Under the pieces are notes generated by a model. That model saw only the letters and a list, made by a program, of their open reading frames with translations, made no database searches and had not been told where the DNA came from. This document shows, piece after piece, positions 12,986 through 28,459 of a stretch of 33,562 bases of DNA (positions are counted from its first letter, which is position 1; every line of letters starts with the position of its first letter). Source of the stretch: Flavobacteriia bacterium 40-80 (GTDB taxonomy: Bacteria; Bacteroidota; Bacteroidia; Flavobacteriales_D; Crocinitomicaceae); assembly GCA_001899145.1 (NCBI GenBank), contig MKVF01000031.1, positions 1 to 33,562 of the forward strand, read 5' to 3'. The position numbers and the translations under genes were made by a program.

Positions 12986-15900
12986 TTATTTCTTTCTTAC
13001 CAGATGGAAGAATCCATGACCTTCATGAACCTCATCCTTCAAGTCCGTGATACGGTATTTATAGAAGTACACTCCGTCCGAAGCTCCGTTTCCATCCCAG
13101 GTATCTGTTGCGTTTTCTAATTTGGCCATCAGGTTCCCCCAGCGGTTGAAGATTTCAACATATACTGTTTTTGCATAATGTGTTTCTATAAGGAATTCTT
13201 CATTGGCTCCATCTCCGTTAGGTGTGAAGACATTCGGGATATTGATAACGATTTCAGGGAATCCCAGCACAATAATGCTTGTGGTTGCGGTATCTGAACA
13301 CAAACCGTTGCTTGCCACCAGGATAACTTCATATTGTCCCGGAGCAGTATAAGTTGCCGAAACCGTTGCGCTTCCGGAGTTGCTTGTCTGCCCGTTTCCG
13401 AAATTCCATGCATACGTATTGGCATTGGAAGATGCGTTGGTGAAAACTACTTCCAGCGGTGGGTATCCAGTGTCAACATTGGAGCTGATCGCCGCATTCG
13501 GGTCAGGTAATACGGTAACTGTTACATTTGCAACACCTGTACATCCGCTTGCATCGGTGCCTGTTACAGAATAAGAAGTCGTTACTGTAGGATTAACCGT
13601 TATACTTGGTGTACTTCCTCCTGTTGTCCATGAATAAGATGTCCCGCCTGAGGCTGTCAGCGTGGTTGATTGTCCCGCACATACGGTCGTATTTCCGGAG
13701 ATGCTGATAGCAGGCTGCTGAGATGTTGTAAGCGCAACATTTGCTGTTGCCGTACAAGCCAGGTCATCTGTAACGGTAACAACATAATTTCCGGCTCCAA
13801 GATTCGTAAATGTACTTGTCGTTTGACTGCTTCCGCCTCCTAATGAATAAGTATAAGGAGCCGTTCCGCCGGTAACATTTACGGTAATGGTACCATCTGT
13901 CTGTCCACAGCTCGGAGGAGTTGTCGCTGTTGTGATCACAGGTATATTTCCCGGAAGAATCTGAACCTGGCTTGTTGTTGTACAGCCACCGGCATCTTTC
14001 ACCGTAACGGTGTAGCTGCCATCGTTTAAACTATTGAATGATGTTCCGTTCTGGAAGTTCGTTCCATCAATGCTGTAAGTCAGTGTTCCCGTTCCGCCGG
14101 AAGCCTGAACGGTGATCGTCCCGTCATTATTATTACATGTTTCATCCGTTTTATTCAGCTGATCAATTGCCGGAGCATTGTCATTCTGTACGGTAACTGT
14201 TCCGTTTGTGGTACATCCGCTGCTGTTTTTTACTACTACATTGTAGTTTCCTGCTCCTACATTATTGAAGACATTTCCGGACTGGAAGGTCTGACCATTA
14301 TTAATACTGTATTCAAAGCCTGTTGTTGATCCGGTAATGTGAATTGTAATACTGCCATCGTTTCCTGAGCAGGTCGCGTTTGTAGAGGAAATATTGTTTA
14401 TTACCGGAGCACTGCTGCTCTGAATGGTCGCTGTTCCGTTCACCGGACAGTTGCTGTCATCAATTATTCTTATGGAATAATTTCCGCCGGCTAATCCTGT
14501 AAATACATTGGACGACTGAAATGTCTGTCCGTTGTTGATACTATATTGAACGTTTGTTGTCTGTCCTGAGACATAGATCGTAATTGTTCCGTTGCTGCTG
14601 CCGCAAGGAGGATTGGTGACATTTACACTGTCAATGGTCAGCGCGCAGCATACACCATCAGTTGTTACATTTACGATATCCGACACGGTAACACAACCTG
14701 CAGTATCAGATGCTGTTAGTGTATATGCAGTGTTTACTGTCGGACAAACAGTTGGTGTTAATGTACTTTCTTCTCCCGGGCTCATATAAGTTGTCGGGGA
14801 CCATGTGATATCCGGAATATAGCTGTCTTCTTCATCATCGAAGGTGATCGACCAGCCGTCAAATGTCCCGGAACCGGAGAAGGCACTTGTTGTAACTGAT
14901 ATCGACCAGGTTCCGTTAGCCAGACAACCGTCAATATTTGAGAATGGCTGATTTGAATTGATATTACCTGTAATAGGGACCGCTGCACTTGTGTTGCTGG
15001 AAATACTGGATATGTTTATTCCTCCGGAAGGGACAAAACAAACATTCTGATAATAAGATGCTTGTGGAGGAGATCCAAGAGGAGGAAAATAAGGAGATTG
15101 CCCAGCTAATCCCGAAGGAGCACCGCCTTGTGGTACCAATATTACGGACGCACCGCCCGGGCAAGTAAGTTTCAGAGAGAGTGTTTCGACTCCGGAAGGA
15201 GGTAAATTCAATCCGGTAAATTTCAAATTAGAAATACAAACTTTTAAGAGAGATCCCGGATTTACATTATCCATATTTAAGTCCTGAATGTTGACATTCA
15301 CAGAGGCTCCGCTAATAATAGATGCATCAAACGTTTCTACTTGAGTATTAGAAAAGGTTTTGATTCCTCCCGGATCATTGACAACTTTAGCGACTCCCTG
15401 CAAATCAATACATTGTCCCGGGCAAACAGAAAGGTCAGGACCTGCATTTACCTGAACATCCGGGTTGGTTACAACTACTTCTACGTTTGCGGTACATGTT
15501 CCGGAACTGGAAGTCATTGTGACTGTATAAGTCGTTGTTGTGTGTGGAGAAACGGGTGTTGGGTTATCTCCGGGCAGAGAGGTTGTGTACCCGTCGTGCG
15601 ACCATGTATATTGAACGTTCGGGTCATTTACAATGATCTGTACATTGTCTATTCCCCAGTGATCATAAGCCGCTCCGGAATCCGCATCCTGAAACCATCT
15701 GAATTTTACGCCGTTGATCAATGCCGCTGCCGGGATGGGAAAACACCAGTTATTCCAGTTAATCAGCTGAGGGTCATATCCTCCGTTCGGATCGAAATAG
15801 TGAATGGTTACCCAGGTTGCACCGTTATCTATTGAATATTGCAGGAAAACCCCTTCATCTGATTCATCCGGCCCTTCACAAGGCGCGTTCCCGCCTTGTT

Positions 15901-16282
15901 CTGCCATCAGCAGATCAAAACAGATGGTTCCTCCGGCAGGAGCAACAGCAGGACCGAAGTTTAAAGGGTTTGTTTCCAGTGTTCTCGGAACTCCTGACTG
16001 GCTTCCCATCCAGATGTGGGTTGTTCCGTCAACACCGTTGGGACTGCAGGGATTTGTAAACGTTGCCTGTTGGGTAAACGCCCATCCCGTTGCAGTACCA
16101 TTATTAAAATTTTCGCTGAATGAAACATTTCCGGGAGTTGTCCCTACATGTGATAAGGTAACCGACTGGCCGCAGATAATGTTCAGTTTGGAAGCATTTG
16201 CGTTTACGGTACATTGTGAAAAAGCACTTGTCCGGAAAAGACAAGTGATCAATACTATAATTAGCAGTAGTTTTTTATTCAT
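12986..16282 (-). CDS. Secreted type-B T9SS cargo protein with SprB repeats and PKD domain
   Basis: A 1098-aa secreted protein. Layout: signal peptide (1-23, ending SAFSQ); reelin/MAM-like beta domain (about 50-220; YDHWGIDNVQI); Ig-like strand region (225-300); proprotein-convertase P-domain-like module (about 305-480; GCLANGTWSISVTT, GTFDGWSITF); four SprB-type repeats of about 75 residues (550-850), two with the motif YSINNGQTFQS; an Ig-like segment (CAGQSTTLTASGG); a PKD domain (about 930-1005; YAWNFGNGQTS); and a C-terminal CHU_C/type-B sorting domain (about 1010-1098; PNVFTPNGDGANEEF, IFNRWGNLM, DGVYFYKYRI). The C-terminal domain predicts export by the type IX system and surface attachment or release. 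Adhesion is inference. No enzyme domain is visible. Confidence 0.9.
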   Translation of the reverse strand: MNKKLLLIIVLITCLFRTSAFSQCTVNANASKLNIICGQSVTLSHVGTTPGNVSFSENFNNGTATGWAFTQQATFTNPCSPNGVDGTTHIWMGSQSGVPRTLETNPLNFGPAVAPAGGTICFDLLMAEQGGNAPCEGPDESDEGVFLQYSIDNGATWVTIHYFDPNGGYDPQLINWNNWCFPIPAAALINGVKFRWFQDADSGAAYDHWGIDNVQIIVNDPNVQYTWSHDGYTTSLPGDNPTPVSPHTTTTYTVTMTSSSGTCTANVEVVVTNPDVQVNAGPDLSVCPGQCIDLQGVAKVVNDPGGIKTFSNTQVETFDASIISGASVNVNIQDLNMDNVNPGSLLKVCISNLKFTGLNLPPSGVETLSLKLTCPGGASVILVPQGGAPSGLAGQSPYFPPLGSPPQASYYQNVCFVPSGGINISSISSNTSAAVPITGNINSNQPFSNIDGCLANGTWSISVTTSAFSGSGTFDGWSITFDDEEDSYIPDITWSPTTYMSPGEESTLTPTVCPTVNTAYTLTASDTAGCVTVSDIVNVTTDGVCCALTIDSVNVTNPPCGSSNGTITIYVSGQTTNVQYSINNGQTFQSSNVFTGLAGGNYSIRIIDDSNCPVNGTATIQSSSAPVINNISSTNATCSGNDGSITIHITGSTTGFEYSINNGQTFQSGNVFNNVGAGNYNVVVKNSSGCTTNGTVTVQNDNAPAIDQLNKTDETCNNNDGTITVQASGGTGTLTYSIDGTNFQNGTSFNSLNDGSYTVTVKDAGGCTTTSQVQILPGNIPVITTATTPPSCGQTDGTITVNVTGGTAPYTYSLGGGSSQTTSTFTNLGAGNYVVTVTDDLACTATANVALTTSQQPAISISGNTTVCAGQSTTLTASGGTSYSWTTGGSTPSITVNPTVTTSYSVTGTDASGCTGVANVTVTVLPDPNAAISSNVDTGYPPLEVVFTNASSNANTYAWNFGNGQTSNSGSATVSATYTAPGQYEVILVASNGLCSDTATTSIIVLGFPEIVINIPNVFTPNGDGANEEFLIETHYAKTVYVEIFNRWGNLMAKLENATDTWDGNGASDGVYFYKYRITDLKDEVHEGHGFFHLVRKK
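13740..14640 (-). repeat. Region coding for four tandem SprB-type repeats
   Basis: The DNA encodes four consecutive Cys-containing units of about 75 codons, each with an NGTITI/DGTITV-like strand, a YSI/YSL strand and a GGNYS/GSYTV/GAGNYVV turn. The two units nearest the N-terminus share YSINNGQTFQS almost exactly at protein level while their codons differ, so the duplication is old or under selection. Boundaries are approximate. Confidence 0.65.
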
Positions 16283-18808: not shown

Positions 18809-18822
18809 CTGACCTGCGTCAT
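18809..18822 (+). promoter_or_regulatory. Candidate Fnr-type operator before ccoI
   Basis: CTGACctgcGTCAT is a perfect 5-4-5 palindrome in its TGAC/GTCA core, the layout of Crp/Fnr family sites. Its centre is 60.5 bp upstream of the ccoI ATG. Imperfect -7 elements follow (TTTCTTTG at 18845-18852, TGTTTTTG at 18856-18863), each one mismatch from TAnnTTTG, which suits an activator-dependent promoter. Confidence 0.5.
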
Positions 18823-18875
18823 TTTTTTTGGAATAAATTGAGCGTTTCTTTGCATTGTTTTTGACACCTGTTTCT

Positions 18876-21236
18876 ATGAAAGAAGTGCTGTTATGCGATC
18901 ACTGCGGAGATGAAATCCTTAATCGCAACGTTTATACTTATAAAACCAAATCATTCTGTTGCAATGGCTGCATGACGGTTTATCAGCTGCTGGTCGACAA
19001 TCAGCTGGGCACGTTTTACCAGCTGGAAGAAAAATCCGGTATCCGTCCTAAGAATGTTCAGGAACATAAATATGATTTTCTTGAAGTGGATGAGATCCGT
19101 TCGAAGCTAATTGACTTTGAGGATGAAAATTATATAAAAATCACTTTGTTTCTTCCGGAAATTCATTGTTCCAGTTGTATTTACCTTCTGGAAAACCTGC
19201 CAAAGATTTTGCCAGCGGTAACATCCTGCCAGGTAGCTTTTGTTCAGCGGGAAGCCTTAATTACTTTTCGCAAAAACGAATTGAAATTGTCTGAATTGGC
19301 AAAATTCCTGAACAAAATCGGGTACGCTCCGAACTTTGGGAACCGCAAGGAAGAAAGCAAAAAATTTGATAAAGTATTTTTCTATAAGCTGGGTGTTGCC
19401 GGTTTTGCTTTCGGAAGCATCATGCTGTGGAGCTTTCCGGAATATCTCGGAATTGAAAAGCAAGATGACAACCTGCGGAATTTTACCTCCTACCTTTCTT
19501 TTTTTGTCTCTGTTCCTGTCCTGCTTTTCTCCGCAAGAGATTATTTTATCTCTGCCTATAAGGCCGTGCGAAGCAGGAATCTGAATCTCGATGTGCCGAT
19601 TACGCTTGGGATCATCGCGTTATATGCACAAAGTGTTTATACAATCCTGACAAACGGAGGCCCCGGTTACATGGATTCTTTTGCGGGATTTATCTTTTTC
19701 CTTCTGATCGGAAAATGGTTTCAGAACAGGACTTACAAATCGCTTTCCTTCGAACGGGATTATACGTCTTATTTTCCGGTTGCCGTAACCCGGCTGACGG
19801 ATGGAAAGGAAGAAATTGTTGAAATTGAAAAAATCAATGCCGGAGAAATCTTATTGATCCGCAATGAAGAGGTAATTCCGTGTGACAGCGTCCTGGAAAG
19901 TGATTCCGCTAAAATCGATTATAGTTTTGTCACCGGAGAGTCTGATCCTGTTTACAAATACAAAGGAGATTTTATTTATGCCGGCGGAAAATTACTCGGT
20001 CAGAAAATAACCTTAAAAGCAGACAAGCCTTCTAGTCGCAGCCTGCTGACACAATTATGGAATGATATTAAAATAGATAAGCTGAAACCCAACCGGTATA
20101 AATTCCAGGATGTTGTTTCCAAGTATTTTCTGGCTTGTGTCCTTGTAATCGCTGCTTTGGCCTCCATTGCATGGATGTTTATTGATCCGAAACGAATCCC
20201 TGAAATTGTTGTCGCTGTCTTAATCGTTGCCTGTCCGTGTGCGCTGGCGCTTTCATCTCCGTTTACTTACGGAAACATCATGAAAGCGATGGGAAGAAAA
20301 GGATTGTATCTGAAAAATACTGCAGTCATTGAACGCATGGATGAGGTGACAGATATCGTTTTCGACAAAACCGGAACATTGACAGAAAGTGTTCACCTGC
20401 ATGTCCGGCAGACAGGAGATGAATTAACAAAAGAAGAAAAAGAAATGCTGTGCTCGCTTGCCAATTCATCGACACATCCATTATCCAGAGCAATTGTCCA
20501 TTTTTTCCGGACACAGAACATCTATGGGAACCTTGATTTATCTGATTTTCTGGAAAGAGTGGGACTTGGATTGTCCGGAGATTACCTGGAAACCAAAATA
20601 ACATTAGGGAGCCATTTGTTTATCTACGGAGAAAAAACCATTTCCAATGAAACGGAGACCTATTTTAAAATCGGCGATAAATCCGGAAAATTTATTTTCC
20701 ATTCAGAATTAAGAGCGGGAATCAAACAGCTGATCGGAAATCTGAAAGGATATAACATCCATGTGCTTTCAGGAGATAAAGATAAAGACCGGGAATTAAT
20801 GGAGTCTTTAGTAGGAAATAAAGCGAATATTCGTTTTAACCAGTCACCGAAAGATAAGCTGGACTACGTTCTGGAGCTGCAGGCACAAGGTAAAAAAGTA
20901 CTGATGGTCGGCGACGGACTGAATGATTCCGGAGCATTGGGTATTTCCGATGTGGGAATCGCTGTTTCAGAAGATGTATTCCGTTTCACACCTTCCTCTG
21001 ATGCCATTATCCAGGCAGGGCGGCTTCACGAGCTGAATACTTTTCTGGGTCTGAGCCATTATGCTAAAAAAGTATTGCGGATTTGCCTGACCTTCTCACT
21101 GACATATAATCTCATCGGGTTGAGCTTTGCGACAACCGGCAGCCTGACTCCTTTGGTAGCGGCAATCATTATGCCTGTCAGCTCTGTTACTGTTGTTGGG
21201 TTAAGCACTGTTCTCGTATTGCTGAAACGGATTTAA
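18876..21236 (+). CDS. ccoI: Copper-translocating P-type ATPase of the CcoI/FixI type
   Basis: A 786-aa P1B-type ATPase that supplies copper for cbb3 oxidase assembly. The N-terminus has a Cys-rich metal-binding domain (C7, C10, then FCCNGC around 27-32), then a heavy-metal-associated domain with HCSSC. Membrane and catalytic motifs follow: CPC at 453-455 (VACPCALAL), the phosphorylation site DKTGTLTE with Asp497, HP in SSTHPLSRAI, and GDGLNDSGAL. ATG at 18876 is preferred over an upstream TTG at 18855. The order just before ccoS and ccoNO, and the N-terminal Cys domain, favour CcoI over a general CopA exporter. Confidence 0.93.
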   Translation: MKEVLLCDHCGDEILNRNVYTYKTKSFCCNGCMTVYQLLVDNQLGTFYQLEEKSGIRPKNVQEHKYDFLEVDEIRSKLIDFEDENYIKITLFLPEIHCSSCIYLLENLPKILPAVTSCQVAFVQREALITFRKNELKLSELAKFLNKIGYAPNFGNRKEESKKFDKVFFYKLGVAGFAFGSIMLWSFPEYLGIEKQDDNLRNFTSYLSFFVSVPVLLFSARDYFISAYKAVRSRNLNLDVPITLGIIALYAQSVYTILTNGGPGYMDSFAGFIFFLLIGKWFQNRTYKSLSFERDYTSYFPVAVTRLTDGKEEIVEIEKINAGEILLIRNEEVIPCDSVLESDSAKIDYSFVTGESDPVYKYKGDFIYAGGKLLGQKITLKADKPSSRSLLTQLWNDIKIDKLKPNRYKFQDVVSKYFLACVLVIAALASIAWMFIDPKRIPEIVVAVLIVACPCALALSSPFTYGNIMKAMGRKGLYLKNTAVIERMDEVTDIVFDKTGTLTESVHLHVRQTGDELTKEEKEMLCSLANSSTHPLSRAIVHFFRTQNIYGNLDLSDFLERVGLGLSGDYLETKITLGSHLFIYGEKTISNETETYFKIGDKSGKFIFHSELRAGIKQLIGNLKGYNIHVLSGDKDKDRELMESLVGNKANIRFNQSPKDKLDYVLELQAQGKKVLMVGDGLNDSGALGISDVGIAVSEDVFRFTPSSDAIIQAGRLHELNTFLGLSHYAKKVLRICLTFSLTYNLIGLSFATTGSLTPLVAAIIMPVSSVTVVGLSTVLVLLKRI

Positions 21237-21245
21237 ACAAAAAAC

Positions 21246-21279
21246 AAATCCCTTTTCCGTACCGAAAAAGACAGGATTT
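21246..21279 (+). terminator. Probable terminator after ccoI
   Basis: AAATCC (21246-21251) and GGATTT (21274-21279) enclose a further CTTTTCCG / CGAAAAAG pairing. The imperfect hairpin begins 10 bp past the ccoI stop, so ccoI may be transcribed separately from the ccoS operon. Confidence 0.45.
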
Positions 21280-21321
21280 TGTACCCGGATTCCATTGTTT
21301 TTATTGATACCCCCTGAAAAA

Positions 21322-21335
21322 CTGATAAAAATCAT
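21322..21335 (+). promoter_or_regulatory. Candidate Fnr-type operator before ccoS-ccoNOQP
   Basis: CTGATaaaaATCAT has a perfect TGAT-N4-ATCA core, 8 of 10 positions of the classic FNR box TTGAT-N4-ATCAA. Its centre is 64.5 bp upstream of the ccoS ATG. A -7-like GACATTTG (21381-21388, one mismatch) would put the site near -61 to -64, a usual position for Crp/Fnr activation. No -33 element is visible at the right distance. Confidence 0.6.
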
Positions 21336-21392
21336 GTTTTTTGGTTGTTGAAGGTCATTCTTTATCCGTGACATTTCTATGACATTTGCACT

Positions 21393-21581
21393 ATGGGAAT
21401 TATCTACATAATGCTAATTATCAGTTTGCTGATCGCGCTGTTTTTTCTGCTCATTTTCATGTGGGCAACAAAAACAGGGCAATTTGATGATGATTATACG
21501 CCTTCTGTAAGGATTCTCTTTGATGATGAAAATAATGATCAACAAACAAATCAAACAAACAATGGAAATTCAGAAGTTTAG
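21393..21581 (+). CDS. ccoS: cbb3 oxidase assembly protein CcoS
   Basis: A 62-aa single-helix membrane protein. IYIMLIISLLIALFFLLIFM is the helix and is followed by WATKTGQFDDDYTPSVRILF, the CcoS signature (aromatic, GQFDD, tail with pro-charged residues). CcoS is needed to insert heme and copper into CcoN. The gene overlaps the true ccoNO start by 20 bp. Confidence 0.9.
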   Translation: MGIIYIMLIISLLIALFFLLIFMWATKTGQFDDDYTPSVRILFDDENNDQQTNQTNNGNSEV

Positions 21582-23751
21582 TTATGACAACAGAATTGTC
21601 AAGTACTTCGCTTATGCCACCATTATCTGGGGTATAACCGGAATGCTGGTAGGGTTGATTGCAGCGCTGCAATTGGCTTTGCCTGAGTTTTTTAATGATT
21701 ATTTAGGCTTTAGCTTCCTGTCCTTCGGACGGATTCGCCCGCTGCACACCAATGCCGTGATTTTTGCCTTTGTAGGTAACGGTATTTTCACCGGCGTTTA
21801 CTACTCGTTACAGCGTTTGCTGAAAACGCGCATGTGGAGCGATAAGCTGAGCTACATCAACTTCTGGGGATGGCAGTTTATCATCGTCTGTGCGGTAATA
21901 ACCCTTCCTTTGGGAATAACATCTTCCAAGGAATACGCCGAGCTGGAATGGTGGATAGATATTTTAATCGCCGGGATCTGGGTGGTTTGGGGCTGGAACA
22001 TGTTCGCAACTATTTTAAACCGCAGAGTAAAGCATTTCTATGTAGCGATCTGGTTTTATATCGCGACATTCGTAACCGTTGCTATTTTGCATATTTTCAA
22101 CTCTTTTGAGCTGCCGGTCAGCTTTCTGAAAAGCTATTCCTGGTATGCCGGAGTTCAGGATGCGTTAGTACAATGGTGGTACGGGCACAATGCCGTGGCA
22201 TTTTTCTTAACAACACCTTATCTGGGGCTGATGTATTATTTTGTCCCGAAAGCGGCAAATCGTCCGGTCTATTCTTACAGATTATCGATCATTCACTTCT
22301 GGGCGCTGATCTTCATTTATATCTGGGCAGGCCCTCACCATTTGTTATATACTTCTTTGCCGGATTGGGCGCAGTCGCTGGGAGTTGTGTTTTCCGTGAT
22401 GCTGATCGCTCCGTCCTGGGGAGGAATGTTAAACGGTCTGCTGACCTTACGCGGAGCCTGGGACCGTGTCCGTGACGATGTAACTTTAAAGTTCCTGGTA
22501 GTAGCGCTGACCTGCTATGGTATGGTAACGTTCGAAGGACCGCTGCTTTCCCTTAAAAATGTAAATATCATTTCACACTTTACCGACTGGACCGTTGCTC
22601 ACGTGCACGTAGGAGGGCTGGGCTGGAACGGTATGTTTACCTTTGGTATGTTGTACTGGCTGTTTCCTAAGCTGTTCCGTACAGAGCTGTATTCCAGGAA
22701 AATGGCAAATCAGCATTTCTGGATCGCTACTTTAGGAATCATTCTTTATGTCATTCCGATCTACATTGCCGGATTTGTACAAGGTCTGATGTGGCAGGAG
22801 TTTAATCCGGACGGAACGCTGGTTCACGGAGAGTTCGTTAAAACAGTGACCGACCTGAAACCTTTCTACATTTTTCGTTCAATTGGCGGAGCAATCTACC
22901 TGATAGGAGCAGTAATGATGTTCTATAATCTCTTCAAAACAGCTAAAAAAGGAAGTTTCTTAGCTGATGAACCGGCAGAAGCTCCTGCATTGAGCGCAGT
23001 TCTTCATCCGGGAGAAAAAGAAAACTGGCACAAAAAGCTGGAAAGAAAACCTGTTCAGTTTATGATCTGGAGCATTATCGCGGTTGCGATCGGCGGGCTG
23101 GTGGAGATCATTCCTACGGCGATCGTAAAGAGCAATGTTCCTACCATTGCCAGCGTGAAACCTTATACGCCGCTGGAGCTGGAAGGACGGGATATTTATG
23201 TCCGTGAAGGTTGTTACAACTGTCACTCTCAGATGATCCGTCCGCTGCGTTTCGAAACGGCACGTTACGGCGAATATTCAAAAGCGGGAGAATTTGTTTA
23301 CGACCACCCGTTTCAATGGGGATCTAAACGTACCGGCCCGGATCTGGCACGTGAAGGAGGATTGCGAAGCCATTACTGGCATTATCAGCACATGATCCGT
23401 CCGAAGGAGGTAACTCCGGGATCTATTATGCCGGCCTATCCGTGGCTGAAAGAGGATAATCTGGATCTTTCGCTGACCAAAAAGAAAATCATAGCGATGC
23501 AAACCTTAAATGTTCCTTATGAAAAGGGCTATGAAAATAAAGCGGTTAAAGATTTAAAAGCCCAGTCGCGTGAAATAGCATCCGCGCTTGTGACGGACAT
23601 CTATAATAAATTGCCTAAAAATATCCAGAAAGAGTTCGATTTTGACGGAGAAGTGGCAAAACTGGAGAAAAAAGAAATTGTTGCACTTATAGCTTACTTA
23701 CAACGCTTGGGTACTGATATCAAAGCAACGGAGGAGCCAACTAAGAAATAA
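21562..23751 (+). CDS. ccoNO: cbb3-type cytochrome c oxidase, fused CcoN-CcoO subunit
   Basis: A 729-aa fusion of the catalytic heme-copper subunit I (CcoN, about 1-490) and the mono-heme cytochrome c subunit (CcoO, about 500-729), which in proteobacteria are separate genes. CcoN heme and CuB ligands are visible in RPLHTNAVIFAF, WWYGHNAVAFFLTTP, GPHHLLYTSLPDW and FTDWTVAHVHVGG. CcoO shows EGCYNCHSQMIRP (heme Cys551, Cys554, His555) and KRTGPDLAREGG. I chose ATG at 21562 (MEIQKFSYD); upstream in-frame starts fall inside ccoS and add a charged tail. The enzyme reduces oxygen to water at low oxygen and pumps protons. Confidence 0.96.
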   Translation: MEIQKFSYDNRIVKYFAYATIIWGITGMLVGLIAALQLALPEFFNDYLGFSFLSFGRIRPLHTNAVIFAFVGNGIFTGVYYSLQRLLKTRMWSDKLSYINFWGWQFIIVCAVITLPLGITSSKEYAELEWWIDILIAGIWVVWGWNMFATILNRRVKHFYVAIWFYIATFVTVAILHIFNSFELPVSFLKSYSWYAGVQDALVQWWYGHNAVAFFLTTPYLGLMYYFVPKAANRPVYSYRLSIIHFWALIFIYIWAGPHHLLYTSLPDWAQSLGVVFSVMLIAPSWGGMLNGLLTLRGAWDRVRDDVTLKFLVVALTCYGMVTFEGPLLSLKNVNIISHFTDWTVAHVHVGGLGWNGMFTFGMLYWLFPKLFRTELYSRKMANQHFWIATLGIILYVIPIYIAGFVQGLMWQEFNPDGTLVHGEFVKTVTDLKPFYIFRSIGGAIYLIGAVMMFYNLFKTAKKGSFLADEPAEAPALSAVLHPGEKENWHKKLERKPVQFMIWSIIAVAIGGLVEIIPTAIVKSNVPTIASVKPYTPLELEGRDIYVREGCYNCHSQMIRPLRFETARYGEYSKAGEFVYDHPFQWGSKRTGPDLAREGGLRSHYWHYQHMIRPKEVTPGSIMPAYPWLKEDNLDLSLTKKKIIAMQTLNVPYEKGYENKAVKDLKAQSREIASALVTDIYNKLPKNIQKEFDFDGEVAKLEKKEIVALIAYLQRLGTDIKATEEPTKK

Positions 23752-23756
23752 ACACC

Positions 23757-23960
23757 ATGTTACGATTTATCAAACAAAATCTGGAAACGATATCGGGAGT
23801 AGAAATATTCCCGCTGATTTCCCTTCTGATATTCACATTGTTCTTCTTAATTGTGATTATCCGTGTTATCCGGATGAAGAAATCAAGTGTGTCAGAAATG
23901 AGTTGTTATCCATTGAATGATGGATGTGAGGAAGAAGAGTTCTATCAAAAACAGCATTAA
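23757..23960 (+). CDS. ccoQ: CcoQ-like small cbb3 oxidase subunit
   Basis: A 67-aa protein with one membrane helix (about 19-40, IFPLISLLIFTLFFLIVIIR), a basic RMKK after it and an acidic C-terminal tail. Position between ccoNO (5-bp gap) and ccoP (4-bp gap) is the strongest argument for CcoQ/FixQ. Sequence identity to the family is too low to judge by eye. The tail carries two cysteines (SCYPLNDGC) that are not typical. Confidence 0.75.
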   Translation: MLRFIKQNLETISGVEIFPLISLLIFTLFFLIVIIRVIRMKKSSVSEMSCYPLNDGCEEEEFYQKQH

Positions 23961-23964
23961 TACT

Positions 23965-25110
23965 ATGAAAGCAAAATATATATATACTCTAATTGCCGGA
24001 TTGTTCTTTTTCGGGAATGTGCTTGCTGAATCAGCAGTGGCGGCAGAACCTGTCGTTAAGACAGTTCCGAATTACGCGAGAAATTTTGACCTGTTCATCG
24101 CGTTTGTAATTCTTACAGGTATTTTGCTGCTGGCAATATCAATGATTGCAGTAAATATCAAATCATTGCTAAGCTCTGATTTTTACAGAGATAAGCTGAT
24201 CGCGAAAAAGACAGCGGGGCAAAAAGACCGTGACGGCTCTTCTTCTGTCCTGCCACTTGTCATTCTGGGTGTGCTGGTATTGTCCGGTAACAGTGCGATG
24301 GCCTTAACGTTCAATCCGGAAGAAGGAGGAAACGGTATGCCGTGGCTTCGCGTGGAAAATTCCGACCTGACCTTATTGCTGGTATTGGACATTGTGCTGT
24401 TGTTCGTGTTTTTCTACCTGAGAAAGCTTTTTACGCAGCTGCTGAGCAATATCCGCGCGGAGAAAAAAGAAGCCGAAGCTAAAACAACTGTGGCGTCTTT
24501 CAAAAAGATCAACAGCGTACTTACGGATTCTGTTCCGATCGAATACGAAGGATCCATTATGCTGGAGCATGAGTATGATGGTATTAAAGAGCTGGATAAC
24601 AACCTTCCGCCGTGGTGGGTAGTGATGTTTTTCATCACCATTATCTTCGCCGTTGCATACTTGTTCCATTATCATATCCTGAAAACAGGAGACCTGCAGC
24701 TGGCAGAATACAACAAAGAAGTAAAGAAAGCAGACACGGAAGTTCAGGAATATCTGGCTAAGATGGCGATGAATGTGGATGAAACAAACGCAACGGTAAT
24801 GACCGGAGCAGACGATCTGGCTGCCGGAAAAACGGTCTTTAAAAATAACTGTGTGGTATGCCATAAAGAGAAAGGAGAAGGAGATATCGGCCCCAACCTG
24901 ACAGATGATTACTGGCTGTACACAGGAGATATTAAAGCGATGTTCGGAGTGATTAAGAAAGGAACTGTCAACGGGATGCCTGAACATGCGTCTAAGCTGA
25001 ACCCGATTCAGATTCAGCAGGTAGCTTCTTATGTCCGGAGTCTTCCTTATACAGAAGGAAAAGAGCCTCAGGGTGAAAAATATGTAAAAGAGCCGGTAGC
25101 GGCAGAATAG
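23965..25110 (+). CDS. ccoP: cbb3 oxidase subunit III (CcoP) with extended N-terminus and one heme motif
   Basis: A 381-aa membrane-bound cytochrome c subunit that feeds electrons to CcoNO. Start ATG at 23965 gives MKAKYIYTLIAGLFFFGNVLA, a signal-like helix. Residues about 25-200 hold further membrane helices not present in proteobacterial CcoP. The canonical FixP N-terminal motif comes next (HEYDGIKELDNNLPPWWVV, near 205-225) with its helix, then a single cytochrome c domain with CVVCH (Cys296, His300) and a late GMPEHASKL with the probable Met ligand. Proteobacterial CcoP has two CxxCH motifs; only one is found here. Confidence 0.93.
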   Translation: MKAKYIYTLIAGLFFFGNVLAESAVAAEPVVKTVPNYARNFDLFIAFVILTGILLLAISMIAVNIKSLLSSDFYRDKLIAKKTAGQKDRDGSSSVLPLVILGVLVLSGNSAMALTFNPEEGGNGMPWLRVENSDLTLLLVLDIVLLFVFFYLRKLFTQLLSNIRAEKKEAEAKTTVASFKKINSVLTDSVPIEYEGSIMLEHEYDGIKELDNNLPPWWVVMFFITIIFAVAYLFHYHILKTGDLQLAEYNKEVKKADTEVQEYLAKMAMNVDETNATVMTGADDLAAGKTVFKNNCVVCHKEKGEGDIGPNLTDDYWLYTGDIKAMFGVIKKGTVNGMPEHASKLNPIQIQQVASYVRSLPYTEGKEPQGEKYVKEPVAAE

Positions 25111-25123
25111 AAAGAGAAACGCC

Positions 25124-26518
25124 ATGGCGGAAGAAAACGAAGATTTCAGAGACAGGATAGCTACTGTCGATGAAAAAGGCAAACGAATCTGGATCTTTCC
25201 GAAAAAACCTTCCGGAAAATTCTTTAACAAACGTAAAATCGTAAGCTACGTTCTTTTGATAGTGCTGTTTGCTCTCCCTTATATAAAAATGGAGGGAGAG
25301 CCTTTTCTGATGTTCAACATCCTGGAAAGGAAGTTTATTATTTTCGGTAAAATTTTCTGGCCGCAGGATTTTTACCTGTTTGCGCTGGCAATGATTGTCG
25401 GAGTGGTATTTGTCATTCTTTTCACCATTATTTTCGGAAGGCTTTTCTGCGGATGGGTATGTCCTCAGACCATTTTTATGGAAATGGTTTTCCGCCGGAT
25501 CGAATACTGGATTGACGGAGATTACACGCACCAGAAAAAGCTACGTGATGCTCCGTGGAATAAAGAGAAGATCTTCAAACGGGTGCTCAAGCATACGATC
25601 TTCTGGATCATTTCCTTTGCGATTGCCAATACGTTTCTCGCGTATATCATCGGAAGTGACCAGCTGTGGCAGATCATCCGGGAGCCGGTAAGTGTTCATT
25701 TGGGCGGATTTATTTCCATAATCGTTTTTACCAGCGTGTTTTATATGGTTTTTACCCGGCTGAGAGAACAGGTGTGCACCACTATTTGTCCTTACGGGCG
25801 TTTGCAGGGCGTTTTGCTGGATCCGAACTCGATGGTCATTGCGTATGACTATGTCCGTGGAGAAGAAAGAGGAAAATTCCGTAAAAATGAAGACAGGAAA
25901 ACAGCGGGAAAAGGAGATTGTATTGACTGTAAGCAATGCGTTCTGGTATGCCCTACGGGAATTGATATCCGGAACGGTACGCAGCTGGAGTGTGTGAACT
26001 GTACCGCGTGCATTGACGCCTGTGATCACATGATGGAAGGAGTCGGGCTGGAAAAAGGGCTGATCCGCTATGTCTCAGAGAACGGTATAAAAGACAGGAA
26101 ACCGTTTCAATGGACAACAAGAGTAAAAGCCTATTCCGCATTGTTGGTGTTTTTAGTTCTTACGCTTATCACGCTGCTCGTGACGAGAAATGATTTTCAG
26201 GCAAAAGTGACGCGCTATCGCGGAACTACTTTCCAGATCACACAGGACGGACAGGTAAGTAACATTTTTGAAATTTACCTGCTGAACAAGACGCGAAAAG
26301 GGTATAATATCCAGTTAAAGCTGGAAGGAAATCACGGGACGATTGAAACAGCAGTGAAAAAATTGCGCCTCGCTCCCGAGAAAGAGCTGAAGGAACGGTT
26401 TGTAATCAAAATTCCTTACAAGGAAGTGGAGGATAAAGAAAGGGTTTCCATTATCGTATATGGAAACGGGAAGGAGATCCAGCGTGTGAAAACAAAATTT
26501 ATAGGTCCGAATTTTTAA
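25124..26518 (+). CDS. ccoG: CcoG (RdxA/FixG) iron-sulfur protein of cbb3 assembly
   Basis: A 464-aa membrane protein with several N-terminal helices (about 37-55, 85-105, 158-178, 190-215) and two [4Fe-4S] ferredoxin motifs: CIDCKQCVLVCP starting at Cys266 and CVNCTACIDAC starting at Cys290. A CGWVCPQ motif near 108-114 is also conserved in the family. The C-terminus is the Ig-like FixG domain (about 350-464). CcoG is reported to reduce Cu(II) for delivery to the oxidase. ATG at 25124 is 13 bp after ccoP. Confidence 0.95.
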   Translation: MAEENEDFRDRIATVDEKGKRIWIFPKKPSGKFFNKRKIVSYVLLIVLFALPYIKMEGEPFLMFNILERKFIIFGKIFWPQDFYLFALAMIVGVVFVILFTIIFGRLFCGWVCPQTIFMEMVFRRIEYWIDGDYTHQKKLRDAPWNKEKIFKRVLKHTIFWIISFAIANTFLAYIIGSDQLWQIIREPVSVHLGGFISIIVFTSVFYMVFTRLREQVCTTICPYGRLQGVLLDPNSMVIAYDYVRGEERGKFRKNEDRKTAGKGDCIDCKQCVLVCPTGIDIRNGTQLECVNCTACIDACDHMMEGVGLEKGLIRYVSENGIKDRKPFQWTTRVKAYSALLVFLVLTLITLLVTRNDFQAKVTRYRGTTFQITQDGQVSNIFEIYLLNKTRKGYNIQLKLEGNHGTIETAVKKLRLAPEKELKERFVIKIPYKEVEDKERVSIIVYGNGKEIQRVKTKFIGPNF

Positions 26519-26529
26519 AATTAAATGCT

Positions 26530-26949
26530 ATGAACTGGGGAAAAGGATTGACAATAGGGATGGTTATTTTCATGAGCTTCATCATTACTCTGACCACCAT
26601 TATGATGCGGAAAAGCTCTGACCTGGAAAGTGAGGATTACTATTCCCGGGAAGTAAATTACGAACAGGAGATCCAGGCACAGCGCAATGCTAATTCGCAG
26701 GAAAAAATAGCGGTGAATCATGACGAGGAATTTGTGGTTTTAACGATTCCAGAAGCATTAAATGTGCCGGGAGTAAAAGTACTCTTCATCCGTCCGAATG
26801 ATAAGCTGCTGGATAAGGAATTTCAGTTTGAAGGAACAAAAACACTTCTGATTTCCAAAAAGGAATTAAAGGAAGGCAGATACAAGCTGGAGATCACTTA
26901 TCAGCTGGAAAATAAGGATTGTTTGCAAAAAGAAGAAATTATCATCTGA
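26530..26949 (+). CDS. ccoH: CcoH (FixH)-like assembly protein
   Basis: A 139-aa protein with one N-terminal helix (about 6-25, LTIGMVIFMSFIITLTTIMM), then SEDYYSREVNYEQEIQAQRN, which matches the FixH pattern (D/E-YY, then a helix with Q-rich residues), and a beta-rich periplasmic domain. It sits directly after ccoG (11-bp gap). CcoH stabilises the cbb3 complex and works with CcoI in copper delivery. Confidence 0.88.
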   Translation: MNWGKGLTIGMVIFMSFIITLTTIMMRKSSDLESEDYYSREVNYEQEIQAQRNANSQEKIAVNHDEEFVVLTIPEALNVPGVKVLFIRPNDKLLDKEFQFEGTKTLLISKKELKEGRYKLEITYQLENKDCLQKEEIII

Positions 26950-26951
26950 TC

Positions 26952-27698
26952 ATGTGGGCGGTTTATACAAGTAGTCTGATCATTGGTTTAAGCGCCTCGC
27001 TGCACTGCCTGGGCATGTGCGGCCCTTTGGTGATGGCAATCCCGATGAAGACGAATAACGTGTATGAACGTTCCCTTGGAATGCTGCAATACCATATCGG
27101 GAAAACGTTTACCTATGCGCTGCTCGGCTTACTGGCAGGATTGATCGGGATCAGCCTCCAGACATTCAAATGGATGCAGCTGCTTTCCGTTATAAGTGGT
27201 GTGGCCATCGTTTTTTTCGCATGGGCAAAATTCGTCCGCTTTCCATTCGGAAAAAAATTACAGCAATTGTTTATTCGTTTTTCCGGAACGACACTCCGGA
27301 ATCTGTTTCAGTCCAACATACCATTGAAACCATTGTTTTTTGGGATCATTAACGGACTGCTTCCATGTGGGCTTATCTATATTGCACTTATAAACAGTCT
27401 TTTGGCAGGCAGTCCGTTTTCCGGTATGATAGCAATGATTTTTTTCGGTTTGGGAACAGTGCCGGTGCTGACACTTGCCCGCTGGATTTCGGGTAAATTT
27501 CAGTGGAGAACCAACCGCTGGACTCCTGTATTGATCACACTGGTGGGATTGATGGTTGTTTTCAGGGGTCTGAACCTGGGAATCCCTTATCTGAGCCCGA
27601 AAATCGAAGTACAACAGGCTACAAACGATGTAAAGGAAGAAACGGAAGAAGTCGTCATGAGTTGCTGTCACAAGGGAAAGGCCTGTGAGAAACCTTAA
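26952..27698 (+). CDS. TauE/SafE (DsbD_2-like) membrane protein linked to cbb3 maturation
   Basis: A 248-aa protein with about six membrane helices. ATG at 26952 (MWAVYTSSLIIGLSASLHCL) follows the ccoH stop by 2 bp; an upstream in-frame start would overlap ccoH. The first loop holds HCLGMCGPLVMA, and the middle holds NGLLPCGLIYIAL, a pair of Cys/Pro motifs typical of the DsbD_2 domain family often annotated as sulfite exporter TauE/SafE. The C-terminal tail CCHKGKACEKP is Cys/His-rich. Membership in the cco operon suggests a copper or thiol role in oxidase maturation; sulfite export is unlikely here. Confidence 0.85.
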   Translation: MWAVYTSSLIIGLSASLHCLGMCGPLVMAIPMKTNNVYERSLGMLQYHIGKTFTYALLGLLAGLIGISLQTFKWMQLLSVISGVAIVFFAWAKFVRFPFGKKLQQLFIRFSGTTLRNLFQSNIPLKPLFFGIINGLLPCGLIYIALINSLLAGSPFSGMIAMIFFGLGTVPVLTLARWISGKFQWRTNRWTPVLITLVGLMVVFRGLNLGIPYLSPKIEVQQATNDVKEETEEVVMSCCHKGKACEKP

Positions 27699-27747: not shown

Positions 27748-27755
27748 TATCTTTG
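27748..27755 (+). promoter_or_regulatory. -7 promoter element of the Crp/Fnr gene
   Basis: TATCTTTG matches TAnnTTTG exactly and ends 14 nt before ATG 27770. It lies inside a longer in-frame reading that begins at TTG 27731 and ATG 27743, which decides for the inner start. The -33 candidates (TTG 27721-27723, TTTG 27730-27733) have poor spacing. Confidence 0.6.
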
Positions 27756-27769
27756 CAGAAAACAGTGCA

Positions 27770-28459
27770 ATGTTGGATAAGTCTCACAAATACGTAAGTT
27801 GTGAAACATGCCAGGTAAGAAAAGACTCATTATTCAGTTCCTTTTGTACGGAAGAAGTACATCAGCTGGACGAGAATAAGGTATGCTCTTTTTACAGGAA
27901 AAATCAGCCGCTCTTTGTGGAAGGAACCTTCTCAAGAGGCGTTTATTGCATTAATGACGGCAAGGTCAAGATCTTTACCATCGGGGAATCCGGAAAAGAG
28001 CAAATCATCCATATTGCCAAGGAAGGAGATGTTGTCGGGTTCAAAGCCATGTTCAGCGATGATCCTTACAAGCTGTCCGCAACCACACTGGAAGAAAGCA
28101 ACATCTGTTTTATTAAAAAGGAAGACTTCCTTTCTCATTTAGAATCCAATCCGGGCTTATTGCAGACTGTTCTGAAAGAGCTTTCGAAAGAATTGGGAGA
28201 ACGGGCCGTATTTATCAAAAATATGGCGCAGAAAAGCGTCCGGGAGCGGTTAGCTACCATTCTGCTGATACTGGACGGCGTTTACAAAGATGAAATGATC
28301 AACCTTTCACGGGAAGATCTGGCAAATTTTGTCGGAACAGCTACAGAGACAATTATCAGGCTGCTTAAAGAGTTCAAGGAAGAGCAACTCATTGAGATCC
28401 ACGTCCGGAAAATCGAAATTTTAGACCGCAAAAAACTTCTGAGAGAAGCAGGAAGCTAA
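27770..28459 (+). CDS. Crp/Fnr-family regulator, possible Fe-S oxygen sensor
   Basis: A 229-aa transcription regulator with a cyclic-nucleotide-binding-like fold (about 35-145), a dimer helix, and a winged helix-turn-helix (LSREDLANFVGTATETIIRL). The N-terminus has VSCETC (C11, C14) and further cysteines C26 and C39. Cys113 in LEESNICFIKKEDFL aligns with Cys122 of E. coli FNR. The recognition helix has ETIIR where FNR has ETISR, keeping the Glu and Arg that read the TGA half-site. It closes the cbb3 cluster and is the natural candidate to bind the palindromes before ccoI and ccoS. Fe-S binding is inference, as the C14-C26 spacing differs from FNR. Confidence 0.9.
   Translation: MLDKSHKYVSCETCQVRKDSLFSSFCTEEVHQLDENKVCSFYRKNQPLFVEGTFSRGVYCINDGKVKIFTIGESGKEQIIHIAKEGDVVGFKAMFSDDPYKLSATTLEESNICFIKKEDFLSHLESNPGLLQTVLKELSKELGERAVFIKNMAQKSVRERLATILLILDGVYKDEMINLSREDLANFVGTATETIIRLLKEFKEEQLIEIHVRKIEILDRKKLLREAGS

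Follow-up and report, generated by a model that had tools for sequence, protein, structure and literature searches.

Putative Fnr-type operators in a conserved promoter register before cbb3 oxidase genes of a Crocinitomicaceae bacterium

The contig MKVF01000031.1 of Flavobacteriia bacterium 40-80 (Crocinitomicaceae), analyzed at its full length of 33,562 nucleotides and called the window below, carries genes of a cbb3-type oxidase and of its assembly. Two palindromes, CTGACCTGCGTCAT (18809–18822) before ccoI and CTGATAAAAATCAT (21322–21335) before ccoS, are regarded here (probability about 0.83) as operators at which an oxygen-responsive activator of the Fnr type, most likely the product of the gene at 27770 of this cluster, would drive ccoI and the ccoS-led cbb3 genes. 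The palindromes had been reported in a sequence-only reading of this DNA; that observation was confirmed, and its interpretation proved largely right, with the refinements given below. The support comes from the sequences of the sites, their conservation, their register relative to the -7 box, the nature of the target genes, and the presence of the TGA-reading residue pair in only one of the two genes with an HTH_Crp_2 match. From these we infer binding by this Fnr, activation rather than repression, an iron-sulphur cluster, the oxygen signal, cooperativity, the start sites and a leaderless mRNA.

Conservation in relatives, which had been set as a test beforehand, was borne out at both promoters, together with fixed promoter positions. 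The related loci (62) were chosen by CcoNO similarity and belong mostly to Crocinitomicaceae and other Flavobacteriales. TGA-N6-TCA occurs within 260 bp upstream of ccoS in 56 of the 58 loci whose ccoS match was usable; in 42 of those 56, its distance to the ATG is 63 or 64 bp. The site of the divergent fnr/hemN region, which corresponds to the ccoI site of the window, is present in 22 of 23 loci with the hemN–ccoI gene order.

The ccoS operator was profiled on 46 promoters preselected for TGAY-N4-RTCA approximately 60–66 bp from the ATG, so the invariance of TGA and TCA in this set is due to selection. The unselected flanks are kept as well, each base of AAA and each base of TTT being found in 44–46 of the 46 promoters. 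The left outer base of the operator is A in 28 promoters, C in 15, G in 2 and T in 1; the right one is G in 35, T in 7, A in 3 and C in 1. Several spacer positions hold almost no information. The typical ccoS operator can be written as AAAn-[AC]TGAY-N4-RTCA[GT]-nTTT. The flanking C and T, previously included in the shared pattern CTGAY-N4-RTCAT, are no rule, since the outer bases vary in this way.

In Flavobacterium, the -7 box TAnnTTTG spans -12 to -5, according to passages of PMC6847099 and PMC9723704. With the box at these positions, a distance of 36.5 bp between the operator centre and the last G of the box places the operator at -41.5. Before ccoS, the full distal operator CTGATaaaaATCAT (21322–21335, + strand) is centred at -64.5, that is, 59.5 bp from the TTTG end of the -7 box GACATTTG (21381–21388, +). 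The proximal half-operator TTGTTGAAGGTCAT (21345–21358, +), which retains the right half GTCAT, is centred at -41.5, 36.5 bp from the TTTG end. This conserved half-site had been overlooked earlier. TTTG stands 2–9 nt before the ATG in 47 of 57 ccoS promoters (the window and the 56 loci), and the gap is exactly 4 nt in all 47. Such spacing makes the first base of the ccoS start codon (21393 in the window) the predicted transcription start, so that the ccoS mRNA is predicted to be leaderless. In 43 of these 47 promoters, a distance of 57.5 to 59.5 bp separates the full distal site from the end of TTTG. In the -41.5 register, 45 of the 47 keep TCA of the right half, 4 have TGA of the left half, and 3 have both. 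Other offsets at which TCA occurs in more than 4 of the 47 promoters are -22 (26) and -23 (16), which represent the distal site, and -13 (16), which represents a TTTCAAA string. The ccoS promoter thus has a class I or tandem layout, with a dyad near -63.5 or -64.5 and a half-site at -41.5.

The TCAT at -38 to -35 of ccoS could alternatively be part of the -33 region recognized by the sigma factor and no regulator half-site at all. It adjoins the -33 element on the upstream side, and 43 of the 47 promoters have no TGA as its left half. Against this, TCAT falls where the right half of a dyad centred at -41.5 would lie, and three loci (L031, L047, L048) have a full core at -41.5 and no distal site. 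Two core sites 22 bp apart are found before ccoS in six further loci (L071–L075 and L090), of which L071–L075 are without TTTG near the ATG, so their tandem register is not anchored. The consensus -33 element is TTTG and is weak in F. johnsoniae, as stated in a passage of PMC6847099. Assignment of TCAT to the -33 region is considered unlikely but not negligible. The same source bears on the lack of a good -33 element in the two window promoters, which had been taken as expected for activated promoters: such elements are weak in Flavobacterium anyway, and their absence counts little as evidence of activation.

The -7 region of ccoS is also spanned by a direct repeat, TGACATTTC-TATGACATTTG (window 21370–21389). 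Similar TGACA repeats were seen by eye near ccoS in L031, L032, L033, L035, L037, L041 and L078, and are absent from most loci.

The ccoI promoter has a simpler layout. Its Fnr-type operator CTGACctgcGTCAT (18809–18822, +) is centred at -41.5 (class II position), the last base of the -7 box TTTCTTTG (18845–18852, +; consensus TAnnTTTG) lies 36.5 bp from the operator centre, and the predicted start at 18857 leaves a 19-nt leader. In the closest relative (L031, 90% CcoN identity), ATGACATTTATCAT is found before ccoI, with the identical box TTTCTTTG at exactly 36.5 bp. The two window sites are indeed 60.5 and 64.5 bp from the start codons at 18876 and 21393, as noted earlier, but the near-equality of these distances looks coincidental, because, counted from the -7 boxes, the ccoI site lies at -41.5 with a predicted 19-nt leader and the ccoS site at -64.5 of a unit predicted to be leaderless.

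A core site immediately before ccoI was found in 7 of 40 loci, which seemed to refute conservation. However, many relatives have the order fnr (reverse)–hemN–ccoI, where ccoI is not the first gene and the equivalent site is moved before hemN. In this position, the last G of TTTG is exactly 36.5 bp past the centre in 21 of 22 loci, and the gap between TTTG and the hemN ATG is 4 nt in 16 of 21. The identity of hemN was tested in one case, L054 (TIGR00538, 392.7 bits vs a cut-off of 324.95). Both ccoI and hemN thus have the full dyad at -41.5 typical of class II promoters, with the start placed from the -7 box. The best match to the relatives' HemN in the window's own genome is only 26%; since a good HemN match is lacking there, ccoI of this genome may have taken over the hemN promoter of the relatives. 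Among other loci, TTTG follows the ccoI site of L076 at 37.5 bp; in the distant L072 and L073, ccoI is preceded by a pair of sites 22 bp apart, with TTTG at 57.5 and 35.5 bp. No such register was found upstream of ccoI in L059, L067 and L085, apart from TTTG at 37.5 bp in L067.

The register was also examined by spacing histograms. CAAANNTA-N(5-34)-AANNTGAYNNNNRTCA has 98 matches in 30 genomes, and these were sorted by the length of the gap. Gap 19 accounts for 48 of them, gap 20 for 10 and gap 18 for 7, while every other gap has 0–4 matches; 65 of the 98 spacings fall within one base of the peak. A second histogram, in which CAAA alone was combined with both operator flanks, covered 59 genomes. 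Among the 150 matches listed, there are peaks of at least 21 at 36.5 bp and at least 24 at 58.5 bp, with 1–9 elsewhere, and these peaks correspond to operator positions -41.5 and -63.5. At 58.5 or 59.5 bp (28 of the matches listed), the half-site complement TGA is found in register in 19, and in no more than 2 at the other places tested. Reversed-pattern controls gave 50 vs 6 matches for the 14-mer, 48 vs 0 for the exact promoter pattern and 98 vs 18 for the spacing set. This control was judged weak, since a reversed pattern has different dinucleotides, and the histograms were preferred.

Regions with the 58.5- or 59.5-bp spacing were fetched in 19 cases, partly selected by eye. The gene downstream of the tandem layout is ccoS in six of them (L191, L195, L199, L202, L205 and L209, by blastp), a Usp-family gene in L198 and a homogentisate dioxygenase-like gene in L208. 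A membrane-like protein of approximately 93–113 residues (NRYGII...GGIAVGLGA type) is encoded repeatedly downstream of the -63.5-type promoter (L196, L197, L200, L203, L204); the one member tested (L196) gave no Pfam match. The distal site is present and the TCA half absent in L192 and L193 (both MBL/rhodanese-like) and in L196, and no convincing downstream gene was found in the fetched region of L206.

The candidate regulator (27770–28459, + strand) has Cys11, Cys14, Cys39, Cys60 and Cys113. Glu and Arg of the recognition helix read TGA half-sites in proteins of this family, and both residues, noted earlier in the gene at 27770, are present in its helix T-E-T-I-I-R. Matches to cNMP_binding, HTH_Crp_2 and Crp exceed their cut-offs, corresponding to a cyclic-nucleotide-binding (CNB) domain followed by a Crp-type helix-turn-helix (HTH). 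The closest structures are those of FNR (8qto, 1.3e-20; 5cvr/5e44, 3.1e-20), in which Cys11, Cys14 and Cys113 align to cysteines. The best NCBIfam family is Fnr (NF008365), with a score of 95.2 bits vs a cut-off of 228; the protein is FNR-like and lies outside the curated NCBIfam Fnr subfamily. The five cysteines are invariant in all 27 orthologues with more than 50% identity (window included), position 26 is Cys in 16 of the 27, and the helix T-E-T-x-I-R, with E193 and R197, is found in all 26 readable orthologues. One other gene of the genome exceeds the HTH_Crp_2 cut-off; its helix, R-V-V-V-S-R, is without Glu, and its product has no N-terminal CxxC.

In 17 of 22 divergent loci (e.g., L054 and L087), the fnr-side TAnnTTTG is 38.5 or 39.5 bp away from the site that fnr and hemN share, which corresponds to -43.5 or -44.5. 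Being two or three bases off the activating register, this box hints at negative autoregulation of fnr in the relatives. Upstream of the window fnr, no Fnr site was found at the place matching -41.5. TATCTTTG is located at 27748–27755, 14 bases before the ATG, and the gene may have its own promoter.

The sensor appears to differ between related genera. Among the matches listed, at least 21 of 59 genomes have an Fnr match of at least 42% starting at residue 10 or earlier (hand count), at least 28 have a match in a frame of 340–375 codons, and at least 3 have both types. All nine long Crp-type proteins that were read (L211–L217, L221, L222) start receiver-like, and the helix has the form E-[ST]-x-[IV]-R in eight of them, L212 (G012) being without Glu. 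Many of the relatives that encode such fusions have no close Fnr among the matches listed. Pfam gave the receiver-CNB-HTH arrangement in 3 of 3 long proteins tested and a PAS-histidine-kinase in 2 of 2 neighbouring kinases tested. In G006, the receiver-Crp gene is located directly before ccoI. The chances seem about even that this order of Bacteroidota shares a common low-oxygen promoter type, AAAn-[AC]TGAY-N4-RTCA[GT]-nTTT in a strict TAnnTTTG register. In its ccoS form, it would combine the distal site, the -41.5 half-site and a leaderless mRNA, and the operator would be kept while the sensor is exchanged between a cluster-type Fnr and a kinase-driven receiver-Crp fusion.

The bare motif is much less informative than the promoter. 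CTGAY-N4-RTCAT has no match in the window besides the ccoI and ccoS sites; shuffles of the window contain on average 0.24 matches of the 14-mer, and two or more in 3 of 100. The own genome has 50 copies vs approximately 25 expected when the window-shuffle rate is scaled to the genome, with 43 copies within open reading frames (ORFs, called mechanically) and 7 outside. Among these 7, only the ccoI and ccoS copies show a T-tract and an in-register -7 box with a downstream gene. Two others, L014 and L023, were rejected: an ORF start lies within approximately 115 bp, without a T-tract and -7 box toward it. The canonical TTGAY-N4-RTCAA with up to two mismatches gave 66 matches in the window vs approximately 80 expected, which is no signal.

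A number of observations weigh against Fnr control of these promoters as proposed here. Enrichment of the bare 14-mer before genes, offered earlier as a check, was not found, 43 of the 50 copies being intra-ORF. Both -7 boxes of the window deviate from the consensus at one base. The ccoS site is missing in L080 and L085, which are distant (63 and 66% CcoN identity), no TTTG is close to the ATG in 10 of 57 ccoS promoters, including L071–L077, and the half-site at -41.5 is not kept in L042 and L070. At hemN, L067 has no site and L034 is without the 36.5-bp spacing. Leaderless mRNAs are rare in F. psychrophilum, where they make up 5.5% according to a passage of PMC9723704. The 27 Fnr orthologues have no invariant Cys at the spacing of E. 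coli Cys29, which leaves the third cluster ligand ambiguous. The CRP/FNR homologue of a Flavobacteriales genome was assigned to carbon sensing (MalR-like) and not to oxygen in a passage of PMC8510549. A protein search of the own genome gave two more weak Crp-like matches (one with an internal stop), neither with an HTH_Crp_2 match. Finally, G015, G016 and G042 have a tandem ccoS site and a Crp-type protein of 350–370 codons, with no close Fnr among the matches listed. The receiver domain was read in G015 and G016, and the assemblies of G016 and G042 are 79 and 84% complete. This pattern means that the operator alone does not identify its reader, and the receiver-Crp fusion may read it in these three genomes.

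The ambiguous third ligand, together with a globin gene among the predicted targets, could also suit a regulator that responds not to oxygen but, for example, to nitric oxide or redox, or that represses instead of activating. This is improbable, since the sites occupy the classical activation positions, -41.5 and about -63.5 or -64.5, and hemN, ccoI and ccoS serve low-oxygen life. A somewhat smaller chance is given to true Crp/Fnr-family operators with another reader of the family, namely the second Crp-type protein or, in relatives, the receiver-Crp fusion. The fusion is favoured by G015, G016 and G042 and by the TGA-reading type of helix in eight of the nine receiver-like proteins, whereas the second HTH_Crp_2 gene of the own genome is opposed by the absence of Glu at the TGA-reading position. 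Chance placement of two 14-mers before cbb3 genes, to which the 3% of shuffles with two or more matches and the many intra-ORF copies would lend some support, is decisively opposed by conservation at 56/58 and 22/23 loci in a mostly fixed -7 box register and can be neglected.

Under control by the window Fnr, the following sequence of events could be proposed. At low oxygen, Fnr would hold an iron-sulphur cluster, dimerize and bind. At ccoI, a single dimer at -41.5 would contact RNA polymerase directly (class II). At ccoS, the full site at -64.5 would be occupied by a dimer in a class I-like manner. This dimer, two helical turns above the degenerate -41.5 position, would probably assist a second dimer onto the half-site there. 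Bound Fnr would activate ccoI and the cbb3 genes led by ccoS, and probably also a globin gene in another part of the genome. In F. psychrophilum, the cbb3 oxidase is strongly up under oxygen limitation, as a passage of PMC9723704 reports.

The predicted regulon was searched with the operator and the -7 box combined, and 21 promoter or motif loci of the own genome plus L116 were inspected individually. The expectation that the motif is more frequent before respiratory genes failed for the bare 14-mer; with the -7 box added, there is an exact match before the globin gene and a one-mismatch match before ccoI. The exact match, G000:C6:441953-441995 (L114, L210), has class II spacing, is the only one in the genome and precedes a Bac_globin gene (28.8 bits vs a cut-off of 21). 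There are three one-mismatch matches, ccoI among them; L116 lies inside a long ORF, and L115 is without a convincing downstream gene. Two-mismatch matches (23 in 27 rows; reversed control 9) were put down mostly to chance and left out of the target set.

In the 30 genomes, own included, the exact site with the -7 box has 48 matches. The genes after them, clustered by blastp, include hemN-like (4), DUF983 (4), rhodanese or MBL (4) and homogentisate dioxygenase (3) genes, as well as single genes for CtaA, PaaA/PaaC, cytochrome c and Usp proteins, among others; Pfam was applied to some members of the clusters, and six matches yielded no ORF. A link to low oxygen is not obvious for some of these genes, and paralogous regulators may control some of them. 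A homogentisate dioxygenase-like gene with the site GTGAT...ATCAC (outer G/C) has an Fnr-like paralogue (L218, G009:C85) encoded at a distance of a few hundred bases; the helix of this paralogue is R-E-T-A-T-R. A fixed coupling of the outer operator base to helix residue 212, in the numbering of E. coli FNR with Ser212, was considered and rejected as a rule: L218 fits, other homogentisate dioxygenase sites have A, C or G, and the coupling is kept as a lead only.

The + strand of the window carries feoA-feoB, ccoI, ccoS, fused ccoNO, ccoP, ccoG, ccoH, a DsbD_2-type gene and the fnr-like gene. CcoI (18876–21236) is a heavy-metal P-type ATPase of the cbb3 assembly type (E1-E2_ATPase, ATPase-cat_bd), named from context, and CcoS (21393–21581) is a cbb3 oxidase assembly protein (FixS, TIGR00847). 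The fused ccoNO (21562–23751; PRK14485) has a start codon picked by eye within an ORF from 21520. CcoP (23917–25110) matches FixP_N and Cytochrome_CBB3 and is under the TIGR00782 cut-off, CcoG (25124–26518) matches TIGR02745, and CcoH (FixH, 26530–26949) was assigned by a Pfam-type domain match. The DsbD_2-type membrane protein (26919–27698) was assigned by a domain match, with a provisional ORF start. On the - strand, 12986–16282 encodes a 1098-residue protein with SprB repeats, PKD and a CHU_C type IX secretion signal.

FNR control of the cbb3 oxidase is already known in Proteobacteria; the new parts are the promoter layout, the operator flanks, the cysteine pattern and the apparent sensor swap in relatives. 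Low-oxygen sensing and the cbb3 switch seem little described in Bacteroidota. A description of an Fnr-cbb3 regulon in this phylum was not found among open-licence PMC papers, which is not proof of absence, and "Fnr" and "Crp" are absent from the main text of the Flavobacterium cbb3-induction study PMC9723704. The analysis provides a concrete, testable operator and promoter architecture. The candidate regulator has an unusual cysteine pattern, and in related genera two kinds of sensor seem to act on the same operator.

The FNR box of E. coli and Aliivibrio fischeri is TTGAT-N4-ATCAA. The window protein resembles FNR of these bacteria in the CNB domain with a Crp-type HTH, the N-terminal CxxC and a later Cys, the helix Glu and Arg, and sites at -41.5. 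It departs from E. coli FNR in having Ile at the Ser212 position (all 26 readable orthologues), outer operator bases that are mostly A or C in place of T, invariant Cys39 and Cys60 in place of a Cys at the Cys29 spacing, and the Bacteroidota -7 box in the promoter. FnrL, ANR and FixK of Proteobacteria likewise act on hemN and cbb3 genes: Anr boxes are located upstream of hemN (PMC6588701), and fixNOQP is under FixK control (PMC7888657). The present system differs from them in phylum and promoter, in the distal full site with a -41.5 half-site at ccoS, and in predicted leaderless mRNAs.

Class III CRP/FNR promoters carry tandem sites. The ccoS promoter is similar in that its positions, -41.5 and about -63.5, are separated by two helical turns, and dissimilar in that the proximal one is mostly cut down to its promoter-side half. 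Rhizobia possess the FixL-FixJ-FixK cascade, which is resembled by the PAS histidine kinase gene adjoining a receiver-Crp gene in the two relatives tested and by the receiver-Crp gene immediately before ccoI in G006. In contrast to that cascade, the receiver and the Crp-type DNA-binding part are fused in the relatives, and the window's genome has no such gene over the cut-off.

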